Shown piece by piece: positions 39,474 to 57,499 of a stretch of 64,000 nt of DNA. The stretch is from Halobacteriales archaeon YIM A00010. Its GTDB lineage: Archaea > Halobacteriota > Halobacteria > Halobacteriales > Haloarculaceae. Where the stretch lies: contig JAKCFJ010000003.1 of NCBI GenBank assembly GCA_025041175.1, forward strand, positions 558,001 through 622,000, given 5' to 3'. Position 1 is the stretch's first letter. Every line of letters begins with the position of its first letter. A model generated the notes under the pieces. The model had not been told where the DNA came from. It made no database searches and saw only the letters and a list, made by a program, of their open reading frames with translations. A program made the position numbers and the translations under genes.

Positions 39474-39499
39474 AATTTCATCGGAAACGTGGTGTCTCC
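39474..39499 (+). repeat. ORB-like origin repeat (1)
   Basis: AATTTCATCGGAAACGTGGT followed by GTCTCC matches the haloarchaeal origin box core, with T for C in the CACCGG part. It lies downstream of the orc1/cdc6 gene. Confidence 0.65.
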
Positions 39500-39504
39500 T
39501 TCGG

Positions 39505-39534
39505 GGAGGCAGACACCGGATTTCCGGTGAAAAT
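39505..39534 (-). repeat. ORB-like origin repeat (2), inverted
   Basis: ACACCGGATTTCCGGTGAAA in the opposite direction to repeat 1. The two form an inverted pair around GTCTCCTTCGGGGAGGC. Confidence 0.6.
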
Positions 39535-39549
39535 CACGCCACAGGAAGG

Positions 39550-40755
39550 CTACTCCATCTCGAACGTTTCAGTGAGGGCTTCTCGAACGACCTCCGGGTC
39601 TTCCTGGAGCCGATGAATGGTGTAGTTCCCTTCAGCACTACCACCACTAACCCGATTGCGCTCGATGATGTCCAAAAAAGCGTGTTCCTTCAGGAGATCC
39701 CTAACTCGCCGCAACGAAAGTGGTTCAGATCCTTCCTGCTGACATATCGTCTCGTAAACCCCGAAAAGGCGGGTCGTCCGGAACCCTTTCTCGTTCAGGT
39801 CATCGTCGATTGTGAGCACAGTGAGAGCATGCAAAGCGTATCGGGAATGCGGGGTTAGCCCACGGATGAGTTCATTAAATCGGTCCGTTTCCGCGTGCTC
39901 ATACGCTTGATCCGAAAATTCCTCTCGAACAGATGAGGAGTTTTTCGACTGAGCAATCTCCCCAGCGTATCGAAGAATATCAATAGCCTTCCGCGCATCT
40001 CCGTGCTCTCGTGCGGCAAGGGCTGCTGTGCGTGGGATGACTGACGGCTCGAGCACTTCCTCACGAAATGCATCGCGCCGCGCTTCCATGATGTCAGCAA
40101 GCTGTTCCGCATCGTACGGTGGAAACACAAACTTCCGCTCGCACAAACTGCTTTTCACTCTTTCGTCCATATCTTCACCGTACTTGATTTTATTGCTGAT
40201 CCCAATCACTCCAACTTTAGAATCGGACAATTTCCCGGATTCCCTGGCTCGGGACAGTTGCATGAGGATGGAGTCGTCCCCGAGCTTATCGATTTCATCG
40301 AGGATGACGACAACGACATCATACTCCTGGTTGAGGATCGCCCACAAGCGATTGTAGTACGAGGATGTGCTGATTCCTTTTTCGGGGATGGACACATCAA
40401 CCGTCGGCTCGTTCAGGGCAGTCGCAACTGTTTGGATGGCTTGTGTTTCAGTCGTCTCCTGTGCACAATCGACGTACGCATACGCTGCTTTGACATCTTC
40501 CTCGGCAGCTGTTTCAACCAACCGTTCCGAGACGTATTTCGAACAGAGTGACTTTCCAGTCCCGGTTTTGCCATAGATGAGGACGTTACTCGGACTTTGA
40601 CCGAAGATTGCGGGATTAAGCGCGTTTGCGAGTTCGTGGATTTCTTCGTCCCGACCGACGATCCGTTCTTCCTCTGGAAGACGACCAACTTCGAGAAGCT
40701 CCTTATTCGCAAAAATTGGACTCTCTCGAACGAACAAATCCTCAGATTCGGCCAT
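39550..40755 (-). CDS. Orc1/Cdc6-type replication initiator
   Basis: A 401-residue AAA+ protein. Walker A is GKTGTGKS (about 62-69), Walker B is VVILDEIDKL (about 145-154), and sensor-1 lies in IGISNKIKYGEDM (about 180). The C-terminal ~90 residues form the DNA-binding winged helix (LSLRRVRDLLKEHAFLDIIE). It should bind the ORB repeats on both sides and load the helicase. ATG 40755 is preferred; the frame is open 81 bases further upstream but runs into an ORB. Confidence 0.94.
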   Translation of the reverse strand: MAESEDLFVRESPIFANKELLEVGRLPEEERIVGRDEEIHELANALNPAIFGQSPSNVLIYGKTGTGKSLCSKYVSERLVETAAEEDVKAAYAYVDCAQETTETQAIQTVATALNEPTVDVSIPEKGISTSSYYNRLWAILNQEYDVVVVILDEIDKLGDDSILMQLSRARESGKLSDSKVGVIGISNKIKYGEDMDERVKSSLCERKFVFPPYDAEQLADIMEARRDAFREEVLEPSVIPRTAALAAREHGDARKAIDILRYAGEIAQSKNSSSVREEFSDQAYEHAETDRFNELIRGLTPHSRYALHALTVLTIDDDLNEKGFRTTRLFGVYETICQQEGSEPLSLRRVRDLLKEHAFLDIIERNRVSGGSAEGNYTIHRLQEDPEVVREALTETFEME

Positions 40756-40760
40756 AGGTG

Positions 40761-40784
40761 ACACCACTACGTTTCTGGTGAAAT
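40761..40784 (-). repeat. ORB-like origin repeat (3), inverted
   Basis: ACACCACTACGTTTCTGGTG with AAAT after it; one base differs from the core TTTCCGGTGAAA. It lies just before the initiator start. Confidence 0.6.
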
Positions 40785-40801
40785 ATCTTACCAATATCGC
40801 C

Positions 40802-40831
40802 GAGACACACACACCACGTTTCCGGTGAAAC
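40802..40831 (-). repeat. ORB origin repeat (4), inverted
   Basis: ACACACCACGTTTCCGGTGA, preceded by GAGACAC. This is a near-perfect match in reverse of repeats 6 and 7. Confidence 0.8.
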
Positions 40832-41105
40832 ACCATTTAGAGGAGTGCTACTCCAAAAGAAATGGAGGAGGATTTCATAGCAAACGCTGATTAGGAGCGT
40901 AATACGTGGTATTGGAGTGGCTAGATGGCTGTTAATCGGTATACAACAACCAGTGTTTCGAGTTACTGAATACTCGAACTATAGTTCTCGTTAGTAAGTG
41001 TTAACTAACTCAGTGGACTATTCACAACTACTATTTAAATAGCTTTTTGTTTCTCTTCTCAACACCCAATTACCATATTAGTTGTCACATTTGGTTGTCG
41101 AAGAG

Positions 41106-41218
41106 ATCTAGAACTAGATTAGAACTAGATTACACCTAGAGAACTATACTAGCAACTTAAAACTAGATCGTGACTAGATCATATCGTGACTGATCGTGAC
41201 TAGATCATAACTATATCG
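41106..41218. repeat. CTAGAT-rich short repeats in the unwinding region
   Basis: AACTAGAT or GACTAGATC occurs at least six times in about 110 bases, with GATCGTGACTAGATCAT partly repeated. The palindromic CTAG core is usually rare in haloarchaeal genomes. The repeats sit between the two groups of ORBs. Confidence 0.8.
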
Positions 41219-41269
41219 TGGTAACGAAAAGCGCAAAAAAGCATTACCTAGGCTGTTTCATTATGAACG

Positions 41270-41297
41270 GTTTTACCGGAAATGTGGTGTGTGTCCC
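41270..41297 (+). repeat. ORB-like origin repeat (5)
   Basis: GTTTTACCGGAAATGTGGTG and GTGTCCC after it. Two positions differ from repeats 6 and 7. Confidence 0.65.
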
Positions 41298-41303
41298 TTA
41301 CTA

Positions 41304-41343
41304 GTTTCATTAGTAGGAGTTAGGTTTCATTAGTAGGAGTTAG
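41304..41343 (+). repeat. 20-bp tandem direct repeat in the origin
   Basis: GTTTCATTAGTAGGAGTTAG occurs twice without a gap (41304-41323 and 41324-41343), between ORBs 5 and 6. Confidence 0.9.
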
Positions 41344-41363
41344 CCTCCAGGTGTATCCGGATA

Positions 41364-41394
41364 ATTTCACCGGAAACGCGGTGTGTGTGTCTCC
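41364..41394 (+). repeat. ORB origin repeat (6)
   Basis: AATTTCACCGGAAACGCGGT followed by a GT run and CTCC; a full-length origin recognition box. Confidence 0.85.
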
Positions 41395-41397
41395 CTA

Positions 41398-41420
41398 ATT
41401 TCACCGGAAACGTGGTGTTC
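41398..41420 (+). repeat. ORB origin repeat (7)
   Basis: ATTTCACCGGAAACGTGGTG, only three bases after repeat 6 and in the same direction; it lacks the GT-rich tail. Confidence 0.85.
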
Positions 41421-41656: not shown

Positions 41657-42289
41657 GTTGGCGCGCAAGTCGTTGGTCTCACCAGTCCCGTCGTCACGTT
41701 CGTCATTGCCACCTACGGGTGGCGCACGGTGCCCGTACTCAGCGGACTCGTGGTGCTCCTTGTCATCGTGGGATTCGGGCAGTTTGCCGATACGGCGACG
41801 TTCTCGTTCTTACCGTACGTCCTCCGGGAGTATCAGTGACTTTCACCGGAACTCGCGAGAATTCTGTTCATCCTGTACTTCGTCGTCGTTGCCGTTGCAC
41901 AGCCGGCCGCAGGATGGCTTTCCGATCGTCTCGGACGCGACTCCGTGACAGTTGCGACCCTTCTCGTCGGTGTCACTCGCTATCTCGCTCTCCTTTCGCG
42001 CGACGCACTTGTGACAGTCGTGGCTGCGGTCGTACTCGTCGGTCTCGGAATGGGATGGAGTCCACCGGTGCAGTCGCGGGCGGTCGATCAGCTAACGGAT
42101 ACCGAACACGGCACCGGTTTTGGACTGATCCGGACCGTGTACATCGCGTTTGCGGACCTCTGTGGCGTCGTCATCGGTGGAGCGGTCACCATCAGCGGCT
42201 GGGCGAGCGCGATCGTGACTCTCGCCGTCGTGCTGGCCGTGCCAGCCGTCGCCCTCGGCGCGAATGTTGTTTTCCGCATCGGCCTGTAG
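41657..42289 (+). pseudogene. Decayed MFS transporter
   Basis: One frame carries MFS-like helices: VVTFVIATYGWRTVPVLSGL near the start, LFILYFVVVAVAQPAAGWLS, and SDRLGRDS, the loop motif between helices. The first helices are absent, a stretch between VIVGFG and the following helix looks shortened, and TGA at 41837-41839 interrupts the frame. The final ~115 codons (41945-42289) are intact and keep helices 9-12. I read it as a truncated, interrupted transporter gene beside the origin. Confidence 0.65.
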
Positions 42290-56946: not shown

Positions 56947-57002
56947 TGTCGAACTGGTGGCCACCGCCAAAAACTAGGGCAGTGGATGGAGAGGGTGGGG
57001 GG

Positions 57003-57229
57003 TGCGTCCAGCAAATCTAGGAAAAAGTCTGGTTGCCGGTCGAAAACCCCTAGTCTAGACTATCTCAGGGATCTACACCCCAATATTGCTTATTTAGACC
57101 GAATATAGTTATGATACATAATGTGGAATAAGATTTCACACTAGAACAAGCCTACTAGGTACCTTTCCTTTATCCATTGTGCTGGACGCACCTCTCTCTG
57201 TTATTGAATCAATAGCTTTGCTGGACGCA
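57003..57229. repeat. Inverted-repeat-bounded element, possible MITE
   Basis: TGCGTCCAGCAAA (57003-57015) is repeated in perfect inverse at 57217-57229. A third copy, TGCTGGACGCACC, is at 57180-57192, also inverse to the first. The enclosed ~160-200 bases are AT-rich and non-coding. This fits a miniature transposable element with terminal inverted repeats, perhaps with one end duplicated. No transposase is present. Confidence 0.6.
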
Positions 57230-57499
57230 GGGGGGTCCCTCCGCCACTTGATGTTCCGGTCCACATCGAAGTAGAACAAATCAATACGGAGATAGATACA
57301 GAAACGTTTTTATTCATCAGCCGATATTTCGAAGACAGAGCGATCGATGACCACCTCATTCACCTTCTAGTCGGGTCGCGCTCGGCCTGTCCACTGCTTC
57401 GGTAGCGCCGACGGTGTGTCCCGTTTTTTGAGTCCCTGAGCGCTCGGTGTGGACCGAGCCGCCGTATCGCCCACAGATCACACGCAGTCACAGCTACGA
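57230..57499. other. Intergenic region before hflX
   Basis: About 270 bases. The hflX frame stays open to 57449, but the family start is at 57500. An AT-rich TTTTTATTC near 57306 might be a promoter element. Nothing else was recognised. Confidence 0.35.

Follow-up and report, generated by a model that had tools for sequence, protein, structure and literature searches.

In the general model of archaeal replication initiation, Orc binds opposed boxes, the core opens and MCM is loaded; in E. coli, oriC carries GATC sites and works with the orphan methylase Dam and with SeqA. Among haloarchaeal origins, one oriCb type has its orc gene linked to the genes for 16S rRNA, Ala-tRNA and 23S rRNA, as in Haloferax volcanii (orc5), Halogeometricum borinquense and Halorubrum lacusprofundi, and a second oriCb type has been taken up by extrachromosomal replicons (Wu et al., 2012; PMC3528665). 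In H. volcanii, oriC2 adjoins orc5 (PMC6063281), and the orc5 homologue of Haloferax mediterranei lies at an origin that was active in plasmid and marker-frequency assays (PMC4595724). In Haloarcula hispanica, a region with 11 ORBs downstream of cdc6E could be deleted only along with oriC2 and acts negatively on that origin; a plasmid carrying two downstream ORBs was intermediate in concentration between plasmids with none and with the whole region, and titration of Cdc6E by the downstream ORBs was proposed (Wu et al., 2014; PMC3936714). Furthermore, motif clusters upstream of haloarchaeal orc1/cdc6 genes correlate with an orphan methylase, and a role in replication has been proposed for them (Blow et al., 2016; PMC4752239); that paper prints the motif as CATG in the text and as CTAG in a legend, the latter being the form cited by Ouellette et al. 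Raised CTAG, and even more GATC, was reported at H. volcanii oriC2 only, a strain without HVO_0794 and other genes had no growth defect, and the authors doubt that CTAG methylation controls replication in this organism (Ouellette et al., 2018; PMC5867850). Its role was described as still open by Fullmer et al. (2019; PMC6471742).

The window analyzed in this work is a stretch of 64,000 nucleotides (C3:558001-622000) from the genome of Halobacteriales archaeon YIM A00010, which comprises 5.97 Mb in 7 contigs; contig C3 has 930,865 bp. To judge from sequence, the window most probably holds an origin on a large replicon that is a divergent relative of oriCb and is read by the adjacent Orc1/Cdc6; this origin would limit itself and is possibly marked by CTAG methylation. 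The features of the locus are as follows.

39476..39495, plus strand: ORB box 1, 1 mismatch, downstream of orc
39513..39532, minus strand: ORB box 2, 3 mismatches, downstream of orc, convergent with box 1
39476..39532, no strand: palindrome of boxes 1 and 2 with the centre GTGTCTCC-TTCG-GGGAGGCAGACAC, a potential 24-bp cruciform
39550..40755, minus strand: orc1/cdc6 initiator gene, 401 amino acids, intact
40764..40783, minus strand: ORB box 3, 3 mismatches, 8 bp ahead of the orc start codon
40811..40830, minus strand: ORB box 4, exact match, 47 bp from box 3
40831..41270, no strand: AT-rich core, presumed unwinding region, 440 bp, 37.7% GC
41108..41251, no strand: CTAG array, 9 sites in 144 bp (41108, 41114, 41125, 41136, 41149, 41163, 41174, 41200 and 41248)
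41271..41290, plus strand: ORB box 5, 2 mismatches
41365..41384, plus strand: ORB box 6, 1 mismatch
41399..41418, plus strand: ORB box 7, exact match

The original prediction had placed seven ORB-like boxes beside orc1/cdc6, with two downstream of the gene, two inverted ones upstream and three forward ones past an AT-rich core, and all seven were found where it had put them. At up to 3 mismatches, TTTCACCGGAAACGTGGTGT had 7 copies in the window, all within 39476-41418, and none in 100 dinucleotide-preserving shuffles of the window; the whole genome contains 10 matches at this tolerance, 7 of them at the origin locus, and none to the reversed pattern. No box beyond the seven was detected in the window at up to 5 mismatches, and a further candidate near 41836, suggested by a partial repeat, was rejected as it did not fall within this limit. 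The description of boxes 4, 6 and 7 as near-perfect held, boxes 4 and 7 being exact and box 6 having a single mismatch. Boxes 1, 3 and 5 had been singled out as variants, which proved partly correct: they have 1, 3 and 2 mismatches, respectively, but box 1 thus deviates at one position only and box 2, which had not been named, has three. The further idea of the prediction, that such substitutions could tune initiator binding, is conjectural. Past the box, the sequence continues as GGTGTGTGT in boxes 4-6, as GTGGTGTC in box 3 and as GGTGT followed by CTCC, CTGC or TCGC in boxes 1, 2 and 7. The G-string found at the end of many haloarchaeal ORBs is absent from all seven boxes and likewise from the consensus of 608 boxes from 81 loci, in which column conservation is partly built in because the scan was run with the consensus itself, two positions being left free and up to 3 mismatches allowed. 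In IMG/VR, considered for a viral source, a single contig (L310) had one exact match of the degenerate box.

Boxes 3-4 on the minus strand and boxes 5-7 on the plus strand oppose each other across the 440-bp core, which has a GC content of 37.7% as compared with 58.9% for the window; GC was as low as in the core in 13 of 6356 overlapping 440-bp segments, the core's own neighbours included. Inverted ORB repeats hence flank an AT-rich region adjoining orc1/cdc6, the arrangement by which archaeal origins are recognized. Assignment of the locus as a haloarchaeal replication origin with ORB-like boxes is well supported by the comparison with relatives described below. Following the picture drawn for archaeal origins, Orc would bind boxes 3-4 on one side and boxes 5-7 on the other, the core would open and MCM would load. 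A GC-skew change point had been proposed as a check on the prediction and did not appear, as cumulative GC skew over C3:398001-802000 (404 kb of the 931-kb contig) took no turn at the origin.

The product of the orc1/cdc6 gene has AAA, Cdc6_lid and Cdc6_C winged-helix domains and matches TIGR02928 with 423.8 bits (cut-off 181.3). We set the start codon at 40755 because the relatives align there; the longest frame would begin at 40836. GKTGTGKS and LDEID, which we take to be Walker-type motifs, are present in the alignment with the relatives. Of the 13 above-cut-off Cdc6_C matches in the genome, one (G000:C4:36850-37410) probably represents a truncated orc gene, as its frame has just 220 codons and resembles Orc in the C-terminal half alone. 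Box 3 likely lies over the orc promoter. Since 8 bp separate this box from the start codon and box 4 is 47 bp further away, Orc would compete at these sites with transcription of its own gene and would probably be self-repressing.

We compared the window's genome with 38 related ones (39 genomes in all). Outside the own genome, the nearest six Orcs share 71-72% identity with that of the window. Box layout was studied at the best 80 of 133 relative loci (Orc identity 70-73%), of which 78 were evaluable; L087 and L092 were left out for their short upstream sequence. At least two boxes were present upstream of orc in 77 of these 78 relatives, which are not independent as many of them are closely related (Haloferax, Halorubrum); the sole failure was L131. 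The usual layout consists of facing boxes near the gene, a gap and then opposed boxes, with positions measured from the end of the tblastn match and not from an annotated start codon, and the proximal pair is spaced by 47 bp in 20 of 81 loci including the window. A tree of 111 Orcs unites the window and the 80 family loci in a clade with a support of 0.93 that contains none of the 30 other Orcs. Within it, the window Orc branches outside the other 80, at a weak support of 0.68. From the tree and the boxes in the relatives we conclude that boxes and initiator are a conserved pair and that the downstream site is recurrent.

The family was connected to oriCb by a scan of six relative loci for RNA genes. 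In Haloferax massiliensis (L093), a complete 16S rRNA gene, a tRNA gene and the start of a 23S rRNA gene follow from about 2.4 kb past orc, while the start of a 16S rRNA gene is found at the contig end 2.4 kb past orc in Halogeometricum limi (L101) and 1.6 kb past orc in Halorubrum salinum (L130). The other three loci had no rRNA within the 1.4-2.0 kb of downstream sequence available. Judged by this rRNA synteny, the family is the published oriCb, with an experimentally active member; the link between the window and H. volcanii orc5 runs through the synteny of the relatives and not through the orc5 sequence. The window Orc clusters with the oriCb Orcs in the clade described above, it shares its box with the rRNA-linked Haloferax, Halogeometricum and Halorubrum loci, where the comparison was with the related loci rather than with the printed oriCb logo, and in both cases opposed boxes surround an AT-rich core upstream of orc. 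However, its identity to family members does not exceed 73% among the matches listed, which is below the 80% limit set for an oriCb family (Wu et al., 2012), and no rRNA was found in the window, unlike at the rRNA-linked oriCb loci. The locus represents a divergent branch next to the oriCb origins. As sequence goes, it is a well-built oriCb-like origin with a divergent initiator and with accessory features of known kinds.

This Orc is also carried, at 60-80% identity, by 39 plasmid records. Because of these records and the active oriCb homologue, the Orc family likely drives replication, and by extension the locus in the window would do so as well. That the boxes chiefly regulate orc transcription and have little role in initiation is highly improbable. 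Such regulation would fit the presence of a box that, both in the window and in its relatives, precedes the gene by no more than a few tens of bases, but opposed box sets across an AT-rich core have the look of an archaeal origin, and 11 of the 30 plasmid records listed have no second Orc-like place, although another kind of Rep may be present there.

A dormant or relic origin, with a complete build on a replicon normally started at other orc sites of C3, is a real if minority possibility. It overlaps with the explanation we prefer in that the locus would be an origin by build and not in use. Contig C3 holds three full-length orc genes, and given the two further ones (C3:213490 and C3:850457) the origin could be dormant; dormant origins carrying inverted ORBs have been described in H. 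mediterranei (PMC4595724). Against dormancy, gene, boxes and layout have been kept through deep divergence and no other place in the 404 kb examined is as dense in CTAG, both of which speak to build and not to use.

Boxes 1 and 2 follow the 3' end of orc and sit in the 151-bp gap that separates it from a convergent gene for histidinol dehydrogenase. The palindrome that the prediction had placed within this inverted pair was confirmed. Folded as DNA, 39476-39532 gave a 24-bp stem of -18.3 kcal/mol (z -4.9, none of 200 shuffles as good), and its minus strand folded as RNA gave a z of -3.0 with 1 of 200 shuffles as good. With such a near-perfect palindrome, a role as cruciform or terminator is conceivable. 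Nevertheless, we regard it as distinctly improbable that it serves to terminate transcription of the two convergent genes and resembles ORBs only secondarily: the palindrome occupies the gap between them and makes a strong hairpin on the plus strand as DNA and on the minus strand as RNA, but both of its arms match the ORB box (1 and 3 mismatches), boxes downstream of orc recur in the relatives and, by eye, the stem has no trailing run of T.

The original prediction considered the downstream pair an unusual extra site. This view did not hold, as boxes downstream of orc occurred in 32 of the 78 relatives (two or more in 22) and were lacking in 46, and the arrangement, together with its negative effect, has been published (PMC3528665, PMC3936714). 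Boxes downstream of the initiator are thus common in the family; in the literature, as far as the available portions go, they have been deletion-tested in one species. The two ORB boxes downstream of the initiator gene, with the origin upstream, match the arrangement at H. hispanica oriC2-cdc6E/oriC2D (Wu et al., 2014). The window differs in having two downstream boxes as a palindrome, whereas oriC2D has 11 in 722 bp, and the likeness is one of arrangement, Cdc6E having been placed neither in nor outside the Orc family of the window. By analogy with oriC2D, boxes 1 and 2 probably soak up Orc and would damp initiation; as there are only two sites, a mild titration effect is suggested.

The original prediction had overlooked the array of CTAG sites in the core. 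Two further CTAG sites lie outside the array at 40921 and 41301, and GATCGTGACTAGATCATA occurs twice, 26 bp apart, inside it (41166-41209). Over the 404 kb examined, CTAG density peaks at the origin, with 10 sites in 200 bp (runner-up 6). Helical phasing of the sites is not claimed, since the 10.5-bp cosine score in 37 segments was reached by 14% of jittered sets. Using three CTAG with gaps of 1-14 bp as the cluster pattern, we found six clusters in the genome, five of which precede an orc match by about 350-1190 bp:

C2:45193, C2:872208, C3:212927, C3:599108 and C4:664102, no strand: triple-CTAG clusters upstream of orc

The Orcs beside the other four of these clusters are 35-52% identical to the window Orc. 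The only cluster of this genome with no orc within 4 kb (G000:C1:2512354, L169) has a local GC content of 41%. The pattern with reversed CTAG, i.e. GATC, had 1145 matches and is an unmatched control because GATC is common in this genome. The same-genus genomes G001, G003, G004, G005 and G006 have CTAG clusters upstream of orc too. In 25 other genomes, 32 of 59 triple-CTAG clusters were upstream of orc and 27 were not. In total, 62 places were assessed in this way, 3 in the own genome and 59 in others, with 34 of 62 upstream of orc (2 of 3 and 32 of 59, respectively); distances were measured up to the boundary of the stop-to-stop frame, one place scored negative (L187) is truncated where its contig ends, the count does not include the clusters of G023 (14 matches), and the other three clusters of the own genome were judged from the positions of cluster and orc.

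It is unlikely that the array merely reflects relaxed CTAG avoidance in AT-rich, non-coding DNA. Over the 404 kb, CTAG density does climb from 0.5 per kb at 60-65% GC to 2.3 per kb at 40-45% GC, falling again below 40% GC (30 segments), and the clusters of other genomes that are not upstream of orc would also agree with relaxed avoidance. However, the origin has 17.5 CTAG per kb as compared with 2.27 in 99 half-overlapping segments of 40-45% GC, five of the six own clusters are upstream of orc genes whose products, at the other four, are so unlike that of the window, and a correlation of such clusters with a methylase has been published (PMC4752239).

The gap between the boxes contains 10 CTAG in the window and at most 4 in any of the 80 relatives. 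The array appears to follow the lineage and not the Orc family, and the available portions of the CTAG literature hold no description of this pattern. It lies upstream of orc1/cdc6, the position that marks the origin clusters of Blow et al. (2016), and resembles these in dense CTAG upstream of orc, in occurring at several origins per genome and in the presence of a methylase homologue; only the site and its density are new here. A dense array is found only in the window among the 81 family loci, yet origins with unlike Orcs in this genome and genus have one too, for which reason the array could be a methylation-read switch laid into the unwinding regions of the lineage's origins whatever the Orc/ORB system. 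We consider this reading rather doubtful; if true, the array would amount to a system of origin sequestration in archaea that acts in trans through a reader protein. The combination of a conserved Orc/ORB layout with a lineage-bound CTAG array separates initiator-read from methylase-read signals, and the role of CTAG methylation is therefore testable at one compact locus.

A methylase homologue is encoded at C1:439.8-440.9 kb. The protein matches PF01555, carries a TSPPYP motif and is 52-81% identical to proteins at 21 of the other 29 loci returned; at one of these (L259), no proper frame was picked in the comparison. NCBIfam assigned it no specificity, and it is presumed to be CTAG-specific. 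The array is a likely target of this presumed CTAG methylase and, by analogy, may mark newly copied origins in a manner similar to Dam and SeqA. The comparison with E. coli is one of how the systems work, namely of sites for an orphan methylase clustered in the origin; motif, enzyme and domain of life differ. Among the 39 genomes, presence of the methylase did not cleanly explain presence of clusters: same-genus G002 had no triple-CTAG cluster despite a methylase homologue and, conversely, G015 (60% complete) had CTAG clusters without a PF01555 match.

A second origin-like spot is present in the window at 56974-57235, between genes for a glyoxalase-family protein and an HflX-type GTPase and without an orc gene. 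It holds the only three exact matches to TNTGCTGGACGCASS in the genome, one of them inverted, around an AT-rich stretch, and has 6 CTAG within 200 bp. With mismatches allowed, TNTGCTGGACGCASS was no commoner in the scan than a control pattern. The outer two copies extend into C6 or G6, and the spot could alternatively be a small mobile element whose terminal repeats form the ends. On other contigs, TTGC(T/C)GGACGCACCCCC was observed in single copies at L313:3442 (C4), L314:3300 (C7), L315:3404 (G001 C5) and L316:3103 (G005 C48). In L313, L314 and L316, TGCAATAG adjoins a run of C or G, and a frame near the copy in L313 is, by eye, ParA-like.
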